Source: a virus
Strand: one strand, 5' to 3'
IMG/VR virus record: IMGVR_UViG_3300031707_000062
Span: 1-39,040 of that record
Length of the DNA: 39,040 bases
Below the pieces are notes generated by a model. The model did no database searches, had not been told where the DNA came from, and saw only the letters and a program-made list of their open reading frames with translations. The translations under genes and the position numbers were made by a program. Below, piece after piece: positions 1-39,040 of the stretch; position 1 is the first letter of the stretch; each line of letters begins with the position of its first letter.

Positions 1-140
1 TTTCCGAAGAAAATTATTTGGAAAAAAGATTTAGTCTTCGGATTTAAGGCAGCGGCGGATGCGGCACGGGGTGCGGCATGGGGTGCGGCATGGGATGCGG
101 CATGGGGTGCGGCATGGGGTGCGGCACGGGGTGCGGCACG
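1..140. repeat. Terminal overlap (copy 1) of a circular genome
   Basis: Bases 1-140 recur at 38901-39040. The only difference is position 127 (C) against 39027 (T). The same reading frame enters at base 1 and leaves at 39040, so this is the overlap of a circular or permuted assembly, not two real loci. Trimming it leaves about 38,900 bp. The overlap ends inside the 12-bp tandem array, so the exact closure and repeat number are uncertain. A true short direct terminal repeat is possible but less likely, because it would split a gene. Confidence 0.9.
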
Positions 141-819
141 GGGTGCGGCATGGGATGCGGCATGGGGTGCGGCACGGGGTGCGGCATGGGATGCGGCATG
201 GGATGCGGCATGGGGTGCGGCACGGGGTGCGGCATGGGGTGCGGCAGCGATTAATACAGGCTTAAAAGATAAAGCGACTCTTAAGCTTATTGCAATCGAA
301 ACACAAACACTAAAAGCCTTAGAGAACGGCCTTGCTTGGTATTTCCCAATGCAAGACAAGTTAATTTTAGTGCCCCTTCCGGAATTTTCTTTTGACGAAG
401 AGCAAAAGCTTCACGCAGAGAACAAACCGGCTATTTACTGGAAGGGAGGAGCCAAATTTTATTTCTACCACGGAGTAAAAGTAGATAAAAAGTTAATCGA
501 ATCCCCGGAGAAATTAACAAAGAAGGACTGGCTCAATGAAAGCAACCTTGAAATAAGACGCGTTATTCAGGAAAGAATGCCCGACTTTGCTAAGAAAATT
601 GGTGGAAAGAAAATCGATACTTCAGAAAAAGGAGAGCTTATTGAAGTTGACTTGGGAAGCGATCCGGAGAAAATAGCCAGATATGTAAAAGTTAAGGATG
701 GTTCAACTGCCAGAGAGTACTTCTTAAGAGTTCCTCCAACTATCCAAAAAGTAAATGAGGGAATAGCGTGGACCTTTGGCCTTGAAGCTAAAAAATATAA
801 ACCGATAAAAGAAACTTAA
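1..819 (+). CDS. DUF6745-like protein with AAW(G/D) repeats (3' part; 5' part at 38772)
   Basis: This is the 3' part of a gene that starts at 38772 and crosses the circular junction; the joined protein is about 315 residues. The frame is open from base 1 to the stop at 817-819. The order is a short basic lead, fifteen AAWG/AAWD/AARG tetrapeptides, then a C-terminal domain with the segments YFYHGVKV, SNLEIRRVIQERM, EYFLRVPP and VNEGIAWTFGL. From memory these match the DUF6745 family of bacteria and phages, which often carries a short-period, Trp/Arg/Asp-rich repeat before this domain. The family's function is unknown to me. The gene directly upstream (38480) is a partner I also associate with this family. 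The repeat number may differ between genomes in the population. Confidence 0.8.
   Translation, partial: FPKKIIWKKDLVFGFKAAADAARGAAWGAAWDAAWGAAWGAARGAARGAAWDAAWGAARGAAWDAAWDAAWGAARGAAWGAAAINTGLKDKATLKLIAIETQTLKALENGLAWYFPMQDKLILVPLPEFSFDEEQKLHAENKPAIYWKGGAKFYFYHGVKVDKKLIESPEKLTKKDWLNESNLEIRRVIQERMPDFAKKIGGKKIDTSEKGELIEVDLGSDPEKIARYVKVKDGSTAREYFLRVPPTIQKVNEGIAWTFGLEAKKYKPIKET
61..240 (+). repeat. 12-bp tandem repeat, 15 units, coding
   Basis: Fifteen head-to-tail 12-bp units, gcggcaYggGRt in degenerate form, encode the tetrapeptides AAWG, AAWD or AARG. Only two positions vary: the first base of codon 3 (TGG Trp or CGG Arg) and the second base of codon 4 (GGT Gly or GAT Asp). All other bases are invariant. 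In order the units read RG, WG, WD, WG, WG, RG, RG, WD, WG, RG, WD, WD, WG, RG, WG. The array stays in frame within the DUF6745-like gene. The partial second copy at 38961-39040 has WG where unit 6 here has RG. Confidence 0.95.
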
Positions 820-2648: not shown

Positions 2649-2980
2649 GAACATCACCAACACAAAGGTCTTTGGCGCTTCTTCGAAAAGAAGGTTATAC
2701 CGCGCAGGTAGTCGAAAAGTTTAATCCTTTTGCCCATATCCGGCAGGACCTTTTTGGATTTATTGATATTGTTGCTATTAAGACCGGGACTCCCGGAGTA
2801 TTGGGAGTTCAGACAACAACTCAAGCTCATGTTGCAGAACACGAAGCAAAAATCCGGAAGACCGAAGCATTTAAGGTTTGGCTTGCTTCCGGCAACCATT
2901 TGGAAATCCACGGCTGGGCCAAAAGAGGTAAAAGAGGTAAAAGAAAATTGTGGAGTGTAACAAGGAAAATAATCAAATGA
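2645..2980 (+). CDS. Putative PD-(D/E)XK-type endonuclease
   Basis: A 111-residue protein. The chosen ATG overlaps the upstream stop; a longer frame from 2597 would run through the membrane peptide. The pattern is a helix (RSLALLRKEGYTAQVVEKFN), then DLFGFIDIVAI, then VLGVQTTTQAHVAEHEAKI. That resembles phage VRR-NUC/Holliday-resolvase-like nucleases, in which an Asp in the first core strand and an (E/Q)xK-like element in the second bind metal. Here the second element reads QTT rather than ExK, so activity is uncertain. It is followed by an RNA ligase with a four-base overlap. A role in recombination or DNA processing is inferred. Confidence 0.55.
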   Translation: MRTSPTQRSLALLRKEGYTAQVVEKFNPFAHIRQDLFGFIDIVAIKTGTPGVLGVQTTTQAHVAEHEAKIRKTEAFKVWLASGNHLEIHGWAKRGKRGKRKLWSVTRKIIK

Positions 2981-4047
2981 AGTTGAATTTAACGCCGTTT
3001 TATGATCTGGTAGATAAAAAGTATTTGAGCGTCCAAAAACATCCGACAGCGGACCTCCTTGTTTGGAACTATACACAAAAATGCCAATTCGACCGGCATT
3101 GGACAACGGAAACGATGATGGCACGGGGGCTGATTACGGATAGTGCCGGAGAAGTTAAGGCCAGACCTTTTAAAAAGTTCTTTAATTATGAAGAACATAT
3201 GGGGGAAGATTCAAAACTTCCGAAATTGCCGCTTAAAGAGAACTTCGAAGTTTTTGACAAAGTTGATGGTAGTTTGGGTATTCTTTACTTCTTGCCGGAC
3301 GGGACCCCGCAAATAGCCACCCGCGGCAGCTTTATTTCCGAGCAGGCAATCGAAGCAAATAAGATTTTAGCCGACACGATAGCCAAATTCGGTATCAAAC
3401 TCCTCCCGGAAATGCCCTATACCTGGCTGTTTGAGATAATTTATCCGGAGAACAGAATTGTAGTTAATTATGGAACTACCCGCAATCTAGTTCTTTTGGC
3501 CATTATTGAGAAAGAAACCGGCGAAGAGCTTCCGATTACTTCTTTAATAACACCTCTGTCTAAAGTTAAAAAGTTTGATGGCTTGACCGATTTTAACCAA
3601 ATCAAGACATTTATAAGACCCAATGCGGAAGGATTTGTGATCCGGTTTGAGTCCGGGGTCAGATGCAAGCTTAAATATGACGAATATGTGCGGCTTCATA
3701 GGCTCGTTACCGGAGTCAATAGAAAGACTATTTGGGAACTTCTTAAAAACAATCAGCCTTTTGATAAGCTTCTAAATCAAGTTCCGGAAGAGTTTTACGA
3801 ATGGGTAAGAAGTACGAAAAAGGGGCTGGAAGACAAATTTGTGGTTATTGAAACCTTAATGCTTCAGGATTACGAGAAGGTGCGCAATCTCAAGACCCGC
3901 AAAGAGCAGGCGGAGGCAGTTAAAGACTCAAAATACGCAAGTATAATTTTCCGGTTGATTGACCAGAATCTATATCAGGATTTGATTTGGAAAGTGCTTA
4001 AACCCAAAGCCGCGAAGCCATACAAGGAGGATATAGATACGAAATGA
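2977..4047 (+). CDS. RNA ligase, T4 Rnl1-like
   Basis: A 356-residue ATP-dependent RNA ligase. Family members form a lysyl-AMP intermediate and join 5'-phosphate to 3'-hydroxyl RNA ends, classically to repair tRNAs cut by host defence nucleases. Motif I is KVDGS at residues 95-99, with K95 the expected nucleotidyl lysine. A motif III-like segment (TWLFEIIYPENRIV) lies at about 149-162, motif IV (AEGFVIRF) at 217-224 and motif V (KLKYDEY) from 231. Upstream, KARPFKKFFNY is the usual N-terminal signature. The ATG overlaps the stop of the nuclease gene. No polynucleotide kinase/phosphatase partner is visible, although a metallophosphoesterase is encoded at 34840. A tail-fibre attachment role, known for T4 Rnl1, cannot be excluded. 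Confidence 0.85.
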   Translation: MKLNLTPFYDLVDKKYLSVQKHPTADLLVWNYTQKCQFDRHWTTETMMARGLITDSAGEVKARPFKKFFNYEEHMGEDSKLPKLPLKENFEVFDKVDGSLGILYFLPDGTPQIATRGSFISEQAIEANKILADTIAKFGIKLLPEMPYTWLFEIIYPENRIVVNYGTTRNLVLLAIIEKETGEELPITSLITPLSKVKKFDGLTDFNQIKTFIRPNAEGFVIRFESGVRCKLKYDEYVRLHRLVTGVNRKTIWELLKNNQPFDKLLNQVPEEFYEWVRSTKKGLEDKFVVIETLMLQDYEKVRNLKTRKEQAEAVKDSKYASIIFRLIDQNLYQDLIWKVLKPKAAKPYKEDIDTK

Positions 4048-14995: not shown

Positions 14996-15738
14996 AGGAA
15001 AAAGTATTGAAGGTTGCGATGTCTATTCCTTCCGAAGGTCATACCTTACCAGAAAGCTACGACAACCATATAATGATGTCTTTCCATTTGGGCCGTCTTC
15101 AGGAGCTTTGGAATCACGAAAAGAGAAATCCGCGTTATGAATTCTACTGGCATACTTCCGGGCGTCTTTTGACCGCAATGGCCAGAGAGAGATTAATAAA
15201 CGAGGCTAAAAAGGCGGGCGTTGACTATATTTTAATGTATGACGATGACATGATTCTTCCTCTTGATATGGTTGAGTGTATGCTTCAGGACGTAGAACTA
15301 CATCCGGAAATTGATATTTTGGCTCCCCTGGCTTTTATGCGCAATCCGCCCCATTACGCAGTCATGTATACGGTTATTGAAGGGTTTGACCCGACTCGCG
15401 GACCTTACTATATCAATCAATTTGTCAAAAACTACCCCAGGAACTCCCTCGTCGAGTGCGACGCGGTCGGGTTTGGTGCGGTTTTAATCAAAATGAGCAT
15501 TATTGAGAAGATGAAGCCTCCCTATTGTTTTTCAACAACGGGCTCCGGAGAAGATGTTTTCTTTTGCCAGAAAGCCAAAAAGGAGGCTAGGGCGCGAATA
15601 TTCATGGATACCCGGATTAAATTGGGCCATCTGGCGCAGCCCCAGATAGTTGACGAGGAATATTTTGATAATTGGAGGCGAAAGAACAAGCATTTTATTC
15701 CAAAGGTTCCAGGAAAATATAAAACAACCGAAAAATGA
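14959..15738 (+). CDS. Glycosyltransferase, GT-A fold
   Basis: A 259-residue protein. After a basic start, the core has the GT-A sequence DYILMYDDDMILP with D95-D96-D97 as the nucleotide-sugar/metal-binding motif, then EIDILAPLAFMRN and CDAVGFGAVLIKMSIIEKM, typical of phage and capsule family-2-like enzymes. GEDVFFCQKAKKEA supplies the downstream acidic residues expected at the catalytic base. It is the first of an island of sugar and methyl transferases placed between head and tail genes. Likely role: modification of virion proteins or host surface sugars; the substrate is unknown. It overlaps the next gene by four bases. Confidence 0.8.
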   Translation: MDQKTKKAKEKIKEKVLKVAMSIPSEGHTLPESYDNHIMMSFHLGRLQELWNHEKRNPRYEFYWHTSGRLLTAMARERLINEAKKAGVDYILMYDDDMILPLDMVECMLQDVELHPEIDILAPLAFMRNPPHYAVMYTVIEGFDPTRGPYYINQFVKNYPRNSLVECDAVGFGAVLIKMSIIEKMKPPYCFSTTGSGEDVFFCQKAKKEARARIFMDTRIKLGHLAQPQIVDEEYFDNWRRKNKHFIPKVPGKYKTTEK

Positions 15739-16991
15739 AACAAAAGGAAATTGTCTCAATAATAATTCCTACTTGGAATAATCCGGAGTATCTGCGGGGG
15801 GCCATTGCCTCAATTATTAGAAATGGCACAAGCGAGGGGCTTTTTCATATTTACATAGTTAACAATGGTGCGGCCAATAGCCTAGATTGGATTGCGGACT
15901 CACCTTATATAACGAAAATTCACATGTCCTACAATGCTGGCTGGCAAGGCGGAATCGTTGCTGGTCTTAAAAAGGCAAAGGGGGAGTTTGTTTGTTTCTT
16001 TAATGACGATGCTTATATTCCTCCTGCTTCCCGGCTTTGGCTTCAAACGCTTTTACAACAATTCCGGGACCCGAAAGTTGCTGCGGTCGGTCCTTCCTCA
16101 AACGTAGTTATGGGATACCAAAATATCTTTGTTGATGTTCCGTTCCATGTTTACGAAGCTAGGTTTTTAATTGGATTTTGTGTCATTGTAAGACGTAAAT
16201 ATTTCGAGGAGATTGGCGGAATGGATCTTGATTTACCGGGAGGGGACGATTTTGACTGGTCGATAAGATTCCGGGACAAAGGCTACAAATTGATTGCTAA
16301 TAGAGACGTTTTTATCTTTCATCACGGTTTTAAAACAGGAGAAAAGCTGCACGGAACTTCGGATAAAGTCGGGGGTTGGAATTCATACGAATATAAGGAA
16401 CAAGTTGATTTTGCCTTAATTAAAAAGCATGGATTTAGGAAGTGGTGGGAGACAATTAAAGGAGCTTACGAGTTGCCAAAAGCAGTTAAATCTCCATTTC
16501 CTACCGATTCTGAAGGAAAAATAATTAGAAAATTCCTTAACAGGAAGGAAAAAATTCTTGATTTAGGGTGCGGGGGCAATAAAACCGTTCCGGAGGCAAT
16601 CGGAGTGGATATTGTTTTGGTTGATGAATTTATTGAGACACTCCGACCGGGAACAAAATCTCAGGCAAATGTAAGGGCAGATGTTAGTAAGCTGCTTCCT
16701 TTCGAAAAAGGCTCTATTGATACGATTGTCGCCCGTCATATTTTGGAACATATGATAGACCCGCTTGAGACCTTAACTAACTGGAAAACTGTGTTAAAAC
16801 CCGGCGGAAAATTAATTATTGCAGTCCCTAACCAAAGTATAATTTCTTCAATTCCCATGAGTGTTGAACATGTTCACGCCTTTACTCCGGATTCCCTGAA
16901 GCGACTTTTAACACTTATCGGTTTTGATGTTTTAAAACAGATGGATTCCAAAAATGGAGTTTCTTTTGTTATGGTTGCAAAAATAAAATGA
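15735..16991 (+). CDS. Bifunctional glycosyltransferase GT2 - SAM methyltransferase
   Basis: A 418-residue fusion. Residues 1-240 are a family-2 GT: SIIIPTWNN near the start, FFNDDAYIPP with N90-D91-D92 at the DXD position, and DLPGGDDFDWSIRFRDKGY (about 166-184) as the acceptor/catalytic-base region. Residues about 255-418 are a class I methyltransferase: ILDLGCGGNKTVPEAIGVDI (motif I from about 274), IVARHILEHMIDP (motif IV region) and LKPGGKLIIAVPN. The two activities probably act in sequence, adding a sugar and then methylating it. It is translationally coupled to genes on both sides by ATGA overlaps. Confidence 0.88.
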   Translation: MKQKEIVSIIIPTWNNPEYLRGAIASIIRNGTSEGLFHIYIVNNGAANSLDWIADSPYITKIHMSYNAGWQGGIVAGLKKAKGEFVCFFNDDAYIPPASRLWLQTLLQQFRDPKVAAVGPSSNVVMGYQNIFVDVPFHVYEARFLIGFCVIVRRKYFEEIGGMDLDLPGGDDFDWSIRFRDKGYKLIANRDVFIFHHGFKTGEKLHGTSDKVGGWNSYEYKEQVDFALIKKHGFRKWWETIKGAYELPKAVKSPFPTDSEGKIIRKFLNRKEKILDLGCGGNKTVPEAIGVDIVLVDEFIETLRPGTKSQANVRADVSKLLPFEKGSIDTIVARHILEHMIDPLETLTNWKTVLKPGGKLIIAVPNQSIISSIPMSVEHVHAFTPDSLKRLLTLIGFDVLKQMDSKNGVSFVMVAKIK

Positions 16992-17955: not shown

Positions 17956-18483
17956 TTAAACAAACTTACCAGTTTTGCTTCTTGCCCTAGTCTTAACCTG
18001 AATAGATTTATGAAGTTTGTTGTGTTCAATTTTGGTAAGCACGATCAGATTTTCAAGTCTGTTGTCAGATTTAACTCCATTAATATGATGGACGTGTTGG
18101 TTAGAATTAAGATTTGTTCCAAGATGCTTTTCCATAATAAGTCGATGTTCTCCGACCCACCGGGAACCAGTCCAAATTTCGATGTAACCGAGGGGTTGTT
18201 TTCTTTTGGCGCCAATCGCACGTCTATGAATGCCCCCCTTCCAAAGAGGATTATCCGCACCCTTTTGAGTAATGGGCAGAATTTTTGCGTGGCAGCTATG
18301 AGAGCAATAAGAGTTTTTCTTATGGCTAGCCAAAAAAGGTTCAAAACAGACAACGCATATCTTTGTGAAATATTTTTGCCAAGTTTTTCTCCTAACCCCG
18401 TCTTTTTGAAGTTGAATAATCGGTTTTCTCCAAACACCACCCTTTTCAACAAAACCGGCTTTAATGGCATTTTTAATTTTCAT
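17956..18483 (-). CDS. HNH endonuclease (selfish, opposite strand)
   Basis: A 175-residue protein on the - strand between two + strand genes, with only eight and 23 bases of spacing. An N-terminal zinc element (CVVCFEPF... YCSHSCHAK) is followed by the HNH core VHHINGVKSDNRLENLIVLT and an ending His (EHNKLH), typical of phage HNH_3 homing-type nucleases. The orientation against the operon, tight fit and zinc-plus-HNH layout suggest insertion as a free-standing selfish element. Its own promoter overlaps that of the next gene (TATAAT seven bases before the ATG). Confidence 0.88.
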   Translation of the reverse strand: MKIKNAIKAGFVEKGGVWRKPIIQLQKDGVRRKTWQKYFTKICVVCFEPFLASHKKNSYCSHSCHAKILPITQKGADNPLWKGGIHRRAIGAKRKQPLGYIEIWTGSRWVGEHRLIMEKHLGTNLNSNQHVHHINGVKSDNRLENLIVLTKIEHNKLHKSIQVKTRARSKTGKFV

Positions 18484-27048: not shown

Positions 27049-27714
27049 ATGGCCAATTTGCTTGTTTCCGATATTCAGACAATGCTGGCGATTCGCTTGG
27101 GAGAGTCCGCCGCTCCTGGGGACACGACCACAAAAGCGCAGAGGCTTAATTGGATAAATCGTGCCTATATGGATATTGCCAGAAAAAGGAACTGGTGGTG
27201 GCTGGAAACTACGGATACTTCGAATACAAATACGGGCTCGACTACTGGTTACTCCGAACCCGCGGATTGTAAAAAGATAATTGAGCTTCAAATAAGTGAC
27301 GTTTATTACGACGAGATTCCTTACGTAGACAACCGGATCTATAAAAACACTCTGGGTGTGGTTAGCCTACCAACCCTTAGAAGGTCGTACAAGTTTTACA
27401 GGTATGGAGGCAAATATTATCTTATTCCAACTGACGGGAACGATGCGGCAATTCACTATATAAAATATTACAAAAGAATAACCAATTTGACCAACGACGG
27501 GGATATATTTTTGATTCCGGAAGAATACGGAGAAGTGATTGCAGCTTACGCAGAAGCGCGCTATTGGATGAGCATTACCCAACAGGCCAAGGCTTCGGCT
27601 CCTTTCCAAGAATATAACCAGATAGTTGTGGACATGATGCGGGAACATGGGCGTCGGAGTTCTGGTTCCGCAGGCTTTGCGGTCAGGGAGCCTGAGGATT
27701 CGTTTGGTAGATAA
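27049..27714 (+). CDS. Head-tail adaptor protein
   Basis: A 221-residue protein placed before the tail hub gene. AQRLNWINRAYMDIARKRNW is the signature N-terminal helix of podovirus adaptor/gatekeeper proteins; then YYDEIPYVDNRIYKN, a strand-rich centre (YYLIPTDGNDAAIHYIKYYK) and IPEEYGEVIAAYAEARYWM followed by a helix. These features match the tail-tubular-A/gp6-like adaptor group that joins portal to tail. The start falls in a leaderless position behind a late promoter. Confidence 0.72.
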   Translation: MANLLVSDIQTMLAIRLGESAAPGDTTTKAQRLNWINRAYMDIARKRNWWWLETTDTSNTNTGSTTGYSEPADCKKIIELQISDVYYDEIPYVDNRIYKNTLGVVSLPTLRRSYKFYRYGGKYYLIPTDGNDAAIHYIKYYKRITNLTNDGDIFLIPEEYGEVIAAYAEARYWMSITQQAKASAPFQEYNQIVVDMMREHGRRSSGSAGFAVREPEDSFGR

Positions 27715-27724
27715 ACAAAATGAA

Positions 27725-28240
27725 ATGGCAAAATTTAATAAAGGACATAAAATTTGGCTTGGCCGCAAACACACTCCCGAGTCTAGGCTAAAAATGAGTC
27801 GTGCGAAGAAGGGTAAAAAATTAACAACAGAACAGTTAAAAAATCATTCAAAAGGACTAATTGGAAAAGAAAGACCACCTCTTTCGTTAGAATGGCGTAA
27901 GAAAATAGGCATAAAGAGTAAGGGAAGAATTGCTGGAAATAAAAACCCTAATTGGAAAGGTGGAATTTATAAATATAACGACGCTCTTAGAAAGACCCTC
28001 GAATACAAACTTTGGCGAAAGGCTGTCTTTGAAAAAGATAACTATACGTGTCAGATATGTGGAAAGCCTAGTAATGGGGATATTGAGGCAGACCATATAA
28101 AACCTTTTTCTCTTTATCCAGAACTCCGATTTGCAATAAACAACGGCCGCACACTCTGTAAATCTTGCCACAAAAAGTATGGATGGAATTATTTTCGGGA
28201 AATGAATCCAAAAGGAAAGGAGATATATGCCAACAATTAA
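27725..28240 (+). CDS. HNH homing endonuclease with NUMOD3-like repeats
   Basis: A 171-residue protein from ATG 27725; earlier in-frame starts lie inside the adaptor gene. The N-terminal part has three NUMOD3-like DNA-binding segments (LGRKHTPESRLKMSRAKKGK and two relatives). The C-terminal HNH zinc-ribbon nuclease has CQICGKPS, EADHIKPFS, NNGRTLCKSCHKKY. It overlaps the tail hub start by 14 bases and contributes that gene's SD. A free-standing mobile HNH gene inserted between adaptor and hub genes is the simplest reading. Confidence 0.9.
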   Translation: MAKFNKGHKIWLGRKHTPESRLKMSRAKKGKKLTTEQLKNHSKGLIGKERPPLSLEWRKKIGIKSKGRIAGNKNPNWKGGIYKYNDALRKTLEYKLWRKAVFEKDNYTCQICGKPSNGDIEADHIKPFSLYPELRFAINNGRTLCKSCHKKYGWNYFREMNPKGKEIYANN

Positions 28241-38479: not shown

Positions 38480-38770
38480 ATGAAACGACAAGGAGACTTA
38501 TTATTCAAAAAAGTTAGCAAGTTCCCCAAAGGACTTAAAAGGATCCCCAGGGGAATAATCCTCAGAGGTGAAGTTACCGGACATTCTCATCGACTGGTTG
38601 GGGGAGACGTTTTCTCAGATAAAAACGGAATAATGTACCTTTCTGTATTGAAAAACGGTCATATAGTCCACGAGGAACACAAAACCATAAACCTTTCGAG
38701 AGGAAAGTATGCAGTAATCCGCCAGCGAGAATATCAGAGTAAAGATATGGTCCGGGTCGTTGTTGATTGA
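38480..38770 (+). CDS. GEVTGHSH/QREY protein, DUF6745 partner
   Basis: A 96-residue protein from ATG 38480 (two bases after the previous stop). It starts KRQGDLLFKKVSKFPKGLK, then ILRGEVTGHSHRLVGGD, VHEEHKTINLSRGKYAVIRQ and REYQSKDMVRVVVD. I recognise this GDLL-GEVTGHSH-EEH-QREY order from small bacterial and phage proteins that, in my recollection, sit beside DUF6745 genes. That is the arrangement here, with the partner starting two bases after this stop. The conserved His and Glu residues in strands suggest a small cupin or beta-barrel metal site. Function is unknown. Confidence 0.68.
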   Translation: MKRQGDLLFKKVSKFPKGLKRIPRGIILRGEVTGHSHRLVGGDVFSDKNGIMYLSVLKNGHIVHEEHKTINLSRGKYAVIRQREYQSKDMVRVVVD

Positions 38771-38771
38771 T

Positions 38772-39040
38772 ATGGCAAGAATTAACAAAAAAGCCAAGGC
38801 AAGAATTAAGAGAATCGAAGAGGCCACTTTGCACACGGTTCTTAACAAGGAAGCCGTCATCCAGGCTTTCAAAAAGCAATACAAACTTCTCGGAGTTGAT
38901 TTTCCGAAGAAAATTATTTGGAAAAAAGATTTAGTCTTCGGATTTAAGGCAGCGGCGGATGCGGCACGGGGTGCGGCATGGGGTGCGGCATGGGATGCGG
39001 CATGGGGTGCGGCATGGGGTGCGGCATGGGGTGCGGCACG
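38772..39040 (+). CDS. DUF6745-like repeat protein (5' part; continues at base 1)
   Basis: The 5' end of the gene whose 3' part is 1-819. The ATG at 38772 follows the previous stop by one base. The first 43 residues are basic and helical (KAKARIKRIEEATLHTVL, VIQAFKKQYKLLG), then the frame enters the overlap and the AAW tetrapeptide array before the window ends. The partial array here reads RG, WG, WD, WG, WG, WG, R, so unit 6 differs from the copy at base 121. Joined across the junction the protein has about 315 residues. Confidence 0.8.
   Translation, partial: MARINKKAKARIKRIEEATLHTVLNKEAVIQAFKKQYKLLGVDFPKKIIWKKDLVFGFKAAADAARGAAWGAAWDAAWGAAWGAAWGAA
38901..39040. repeat. Terminal overlap (copy 2) of a circular genome
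   Basis: Matches bases 1-140 at 139 of 140 positions. The mismatch (39027 T, 127 C) changes one Arg to Trp in tandem unit 6. It can also be read as one extra AAWG unit at this end, so read-level variation in repeat number is likely. Confidence 0.9.

Follow-up and report, generated by a model that had tools for sequence, protein, structure and literature searches.

The viral record IMGVR_UViG_3300031707_000062 (39,040 bases, analysed at its full length and referred to here as the window) has ends that repeat each other: a 140-bp terminal direct repeat at 38901..39040 corresponds to positions 1-140 with 139/140 identity and one mismatch. Two adjoining genes reach this junction. The first (38480..38770, + strand, from the open reading frame [ORF] list) encodes the 96-aa QREY protein. 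Its stop codon is followed after one base by the ATG of the second gene at 38772, which is read as 38772-38900 joined to 1-819 across the 140-bp terminal repeat and encodes a protein of 315 aa. The 5' part (38772..38900, + strand, by ORF reading) specifies residues 1-43, a helical N-terminal region, and the 3' part (1..819, + strand, by reading across the circular junction) specifies residues 44-315 and the stop. The stretch 38480-39040 thus holds only the 5' part of the pair, and the bulk of the second gene is at 1-819. Its C-terminal 173 residues (143-315; 298..816, + strand, Pfam profile match) have the conserved domain DUF6745 (PF20530; 82.9 bits against a curated cut-off of 27, E-value: 2.5e-23, profile positions 28-206 of 206), the sole family above cut-off in a Pfam scan of the 315-aa protein. 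A sequence-only reading of this DNA had proposed the 96-aa QREY gene, the 1-base gap, a second gene running through the circular junction to base 819 and a DUF6745-like C-terminal domain, and the ORF reading and profile search confirm all of these.

Upstream of the DUF6745 domain is an array of tetrapeptide units (61..240, + strand) with a 12-nt period of GCG GCA YGG GRT. The array comprises 15 exact 12-nt units (six AAWG, five AARG and four AAWD), which is the number that had been read from the sequence alone, and Tandem Repeats Finder independently reports a period of 12 with 15.6 copies and 92% match. The only bases that vary are the first of the W/R codon and the second of the G/D codon, and there are zero silent changes among the units. 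Matches of the array to glycine-zipper Pfam families were below cut-off and driven by composition, and these were rejected. A truncated end copy of the array lies within the terminal repeat (38961..39040, + strand, by end-to-end comparison). The one mismatch of the terminal repeat, at repeat position 127 (T/C), is at the variable first base of the W/R codon in unit 6, which is AARG at 121-132 and AAWG in the right-end copy. Variation within the phage population may underlie this difference, although as evidence the mismatch alone is weak, with about a 1 in 10 chance of falling there by position. Because the right-end array is cut off and unit 6 differs between the copies, the true number and order of units in the phage are uncertain. 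Several other viral contigs, like this record, start or end inside arrays, which indicates that assemblies of array genes are often broken or collapsed.

Elsewhere in the window, 2950-4047 encodes an RNA ligase related to the T4-type RNA ligase/tail-fibre attachment protein (PHROG 562, E-value: 2e-71). By eye, a single ORF at 15735-16991 reads as a family-2 glycosyltransferase with a methyltransferase domain after it, with two more glycosyltransferase-like ORFs close to it, and two HNH-endonuclease-like ORFs are found at 17956-18483 (- strand) and 27647-28240 (+ strand).

The QREY protein matched no family in Pfam or NCBIfam and a single PHROG, phrog_27831 (function unknown). The residues that are invariant in its family are G5 D6, G34-H35-x-H37, H64-x-E66-H67 and D96. 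The four invariant histidines could be metal ligands. AlphaFold2 models QREY as a small all-beta protein (pLDDT 82). For a relative of the second protein (L005), mean pLDDT is 86.6 overall and the N- and C-terminal parts are well modelled; its array is helical with a pLDDT of 57-74. As these array values are low to moderate, the model does not establish an ordered surface. Fold searches of the PDB with both proteins gave no Foldseek match at E<=0.001 (best Z 3.4 and 3.5).

The association of QREY with DUF6745 was examined in viruses by searching the QREY profile alone against 2.9 million viral contigs, keeping 80 of 129 relatives and calling DUF6745 in these loci with an HMM built from DUF6745. 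DUF6745 is beside QREY in 61/80 of these viral loci, within 100 bp in 54 and on the same strand in all, and 17 of the 19 loci lacking it are 3.4-4.1 kb loci with little sequence past the QREY gene. Among one-per-species bacterial and archaeal genomes, a QREY-motif seed matched at least 591 stretches, 563 of which were confirmed; in the 80 that were kept, DUF6745 is near QREY in 77 and within 100 bp in 68. Phages have either gene order (QREY first in 39, DUF6745 first in 22) and so the neighbourhood is not merely an inherited order. Distances between loci for one protein also correlate with those for the other (Mantel Spearman 0.64 over 130 loci, 0.33 for phages alone and 0.75 for genomes alone, with 0/500 permutations as high in each case). 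By adjacency and correlated divergence, QREY and the DUF6745 domain are a conserved two-gene unit. Among isolated phages, Microcystis phage Ma-LMM01 and a Mycobacterium prophage carry the pair, both in their replication/recombination regions, and the early DNA-metabolism genes near the pair in phages are RecT/RecE, ERF/Rad52, DnaB, replication initiators and polymerase.

The tight coupling of the genes, the small size of one partner, the occurrence of both orders and the accessory location would suit a toxin-antitoxin-like or immunity pair in which the array sets cognate specificity. However, the Pfam/NCBIfam and PDB fold searches recognised no toxin fold or catalytic family and the chromosomal copies are found in metabolic-type cassettes, making a pair of this kind improbable.

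The array is not part of the conserved unit. It is present in 43/57 viral DUF6745 genes but in only 2/75 genomic ones, and both of the latter adjoin phage-type Rad52-like genes. The proposal of the sequence-only reading that the two genes form a module, given that DUF6745 often adjoins QREY, therefore holds for QREY and the DUF6745 domain but not for the array, which is exchangeable and phage-associated; its statement that bacterial DUF6745 proteins carry Trp/Arg/Asp repeats is not supported, as the chromosomal copies nearly always lack the array. Although chromosomal members also lie beside QREY, where the phage protein has a hypervariable array they have either a leucine-rich repeat (LRR) region (Verrucomicrobiota, Planctomycetes, Hymenobacter, Herpetosiphon) or a non-repetitive region (Actinoplanes and others). 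DUF6745-LRR fusions are encoded at loci L108-L110, L112, L119, L121, L125, L143 and L162, and the LRRs of the two that were tested by profile (L108 and L162) resemble those of XopL/XopAC-type proteins. The period-5 repeats of L152 and L182 are low-complexity linkers unrelated to the arrays and were set aside.

Chromosomal pairs are often found within the STM4011-STM4015 cassette, which is uncharacterised and encodes two radical-SAM proteins, a hydrolase, STM4014 and the LRR-like STM4015. The pair might be an adaptor for this cassette, which phages would use to redirect or block the cassette of the host. STM4011-4014 homologues are located within 5 kb of 39/80 chromosomal QREY loci, STM4011-4015 adjoin QREY and DUF6745 in an annotated example, and in an actinobacterial sample the pair and the cassette co-occur and are neighbours in two genomes. 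However, cassette genes were found in 0/94 viral loci, and thus at none of the phage loci examined, and STM4011 was not found in the two genomes with array-type DUF6745 (draft assemblies). A function with the cassette is possible for the chromosomal pairs and weak for phages, and the adaptor explanation is considered quite unlikely. The loci in which the pair lies with the cassette are L189 (NZ_CP023408) and 39 genome loci among L107-L186.

The phage region preceding DUF6745 can be described, from sequence comparison, as an array of 3- or 4-residue units with a fixed backbone (such as A-A, S-V or Q-L). The period-4 backbones of phage DUF6745 proteins are AAx[GD], SVx[DA], QVx[DA], QLx[DG], SAVx, ATx[DG] and KVx[DA] (68 units), and period-3 arrays (SAx, ATx, AxD) are also present. 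Arrays are exchanged between related phages. When 46 arrays are mapped onto a DUF6745 domain tree, 31 backbone changes are counted, and the nearest relatives of the window on this tree have other backbones and other periods. In L021 and L023, QREY and the C-terminal half of DUF6745 share 90% DNA identity over 781 bp; apart from 33 bp at the gene start, neither the array nor the greater part of the N-terminal region has a match. In the near-identical DUF6745 phage pairs that were fetched, the arrays are identical, nearly identical or cut by the contig end; unit number among relatives was instead compared in related Propionibacterium phages (discussed below).

Selection on the arrays was assessed by counting, for each array, those codon variants that recurred in two or more units, with the silent expectation derived from consensus units. 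Treating recurrent codon variants as events (these are not independent, the arrays are young and homogenised, and the measure is distinct from a codon-model dN/dS), the 49 arrays of the DUF6745 set have 167 amino-acid-changing and 8 silent variants where 48 silent variants are expected (p=4e-15), and 42/49 arrays have no silent variant. Arrays collected by DNA pattern alone give similar counts in DUF6745 genes (144 non-silent and 7 silent, 41 expected) and in other genes (84 and 6, 23 expected), as do AAx[DAG] arrays (229 and 12, 65.5 expected, p=3e-19). In a frame control, the silent fraction is 4.6% in the real frame vs 37-38% in the other two forward frames, and variable columns at codon positions 1, 2 and 3 number 60, 64 and 11, respectively, of 183 each. 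Because, among the forward frames, the silent deficit is seen only in the real one and third positions are avoided, the variation is shaped at the protein level, and because the non-silent excess is about eightfold over whole units, relaxed constraint is not by itself a sufficient explanation. The scarcity of silent variants, together with the frame control, shows that the array is under diversifying selection at its variable positions. The main variable position is occupied mostly by R (28%), G (23%) and W (19%), followed by D, E, Y and L with some H, while the position after it is mostly A, D, S or G, and also N. The counts agree with the earlier suggestion that the array is a variable surface, for which binding, in recognition, immunity or host takeover, is a putative function.

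Three other explanations of the arrays bear on these counts. The first is that slippage generated the array as a spacer of low complexity, which may be disordered and would have little sequence-specific function, like the amino-acid tandem repeats of Borgs. Borg repeats have perfect units that are nearly all unique within a genome and are biased towards disorder-promoting residues (PMC9879509); like the phage arrays, they are young in-frame tandem repeats in the genes of a mobile element. The phage arrays fit this description in their near-perfect repeats, in-frame unit length and low model confidence, and Borg repeats also arise independently and yield disordered regions (PMC9879509). However, Borg repeats are mostly perfect, whereas the phage arrays vary abundantly and almost purely non-silently at fixed positions. 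In addition, their alphabet rich in W, R and G is common to arrays with different backbones, and the bulky W ranks third among the variable residues. Given the selection test, a mere spacer is disfavoured and is judged unlikely.

Secondly, a diversity-generating retroelement or some other dedicated mutator could write the variable positions, which would account for the occurrence of several bases at one fixed site beside constant wobble sites. A reverse transcriptase (PF00078) was found in 0/28 array-phage records, including this one, and no template repeat was seen in the 39,040-base window. Retroelement mutagenesis is largely refuted by the former result, and any dedicated mutator is highly improbable. 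Thirdly, the repeats could act at the DNA or RNA level (in recombination, packaging or regulation), with the protein sequence being incidental. The ends of this record and many other contigs do fall inside arrays, but assembly is expected to leave contig ends in repeats, backbones and periods differ between phages, and the variation is ordered by the reading frame; a nucleic acid-level function is accordingly very improbable.

The model proposed for the array in DUF6745 proteins is a recognition module. Based on sequence comparison, arrays would grow and shuffle by unit duplication and recombination, and whole arrays would be swapped between related phages. The array is most likely a recognition surface in which the series of side chains sets what is bound. 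It would bring the DUF6745-QREY part to ever-changing partners, for example factors of the host or of rival phages, early in infection; both the targets and the subsequent action of DUF6745-QREY are putative. Near-identical units, few variable sites, shuffling, swapping and the presence of an LRR at the same place in chromosomal proteins together resemble what is seen in recognition domains engaged in an arms race. Two observations count against a recognition surface: glycine is common at the variable position, and period-3 and period-4 arrays coexist, which a single known solenoid cannot explain. On balance, a swappable recognition module under diversifying selection, resembling the repeats of NOD-like receptors (NLRs) but built from 3-4-residue units, is somewhat favoured, with binding as its presumed function.

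Fungal NLRs (het-d, het-e, hnwd) have WD40, ANK and TPR repeats of high internal conservation, described as arms-race recognition domains (PMC4986451, PMC2873952). The phage arrays share with these repeats near-identical tandem units, shuffling of units, few fixed sites under diversifying selection and modular swapping. However, the fungal units are approximately 33-42 residues long while those of the phage arrays are 3-4, and recognition is putative for the phage array. As the Pfam scan of the phage-borne protein detected no NACHT or NB-ARC domain, it is an analogue and not a member of the fungal NLRs. A search of the open-access literature returned no description of DUF6745, DUF7666, the STM4011 group or phage tetrapeptide arrays.

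Arrays are also carried by proteins without DUF6745. When viral contigs were scanned by DNA pattern for SVx[DA] arrays, at least 120 loci were obtained; among those listed, 51 are in DUF6745 genes, 29 are in cut ORFs and 36 are in ORFs with a complete C-terminus and no DUF6745 match. Most of these 36 share another architecture, which ends in a PFQPAVDLWKRGLVPSFDGKTWRLHSG-like domain and matched no Pfam family. In this architecture (L199, L221, L229, L230, L240, L242, L247, L265, L288 and L292), an MCxFFS-like or YKLAxPDGWDFYTG-like N-terminal region is followed by the array and the PFQPAVDLWKRGLVPSFDGKTWRLHSG-like C-terminal domain. A scan for AAx[DAG], the type found in the window, gave approximately 96 W/R arrays, one of them in DUF6745. 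The others match phrog_8332, phrog_18326, phrog_15773 or DUF7666 (PF24703), although some PHROG matches run through the arrays themselves and so not all are independent domains. These proteins carry or match the same AAx[DAG] arrays but lack DUF6745, and their flanking domains differ in the ORFs examined. AAx[DAG] arrays at L316-L435 are located in many unrelated phage proteins and are equally rich in non-silent variation.

Judged from these sequences, phages have in the array a hypervariable module that is distinct from the conserved pair, is portable and also occurs in unrelated phage proteins. A broader and more tentative reading is that portable, minimal recognition modules form a general class in phages, in which one or two residues of each 3-4-residue unit would be a changeable binding code. 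Such modules, borne by a number of unrelated proteins, would owe their diversity to duplication, shuffling and selection and would be the counterpart in prokaryotic viruses of hypervariable repeat receptors; both parts of this reading are plausible but fall short of probable. Selection that maintains variability in a phage gene is usually the sign of an arms race, and this sign is seen here in well over a hundred arrays from several unrelated protein families. The module is widespread in phages, and the protein that bears the array is linked to an unstudied, widespread bacterial gene pair and to a radical-SAM cassette. Should binding be set by the variable residues, it would become possible to search for the targets on the other side of the arms race, and few known natural scaffolds for variable binding would be as simple as the array.

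Nine Propionibacterium freudenreichii phages encode an array gene of the phrog_8332 kind, which in eight is located between the antirepressor region and recE/recT. The flanks of these genes stay similar while the arrays differ; the arrays are older, with silent variants present. All nine phages infect one host species and seven list strain TL110, and such differences among phages of a single host species indicate that array type is not simply determined by the host. The Propionibacterium phage paper records duplicated array genes. Among these loci (L436-L444), the array gene is tandemly duplicated in phages B22, Doucette and E6.
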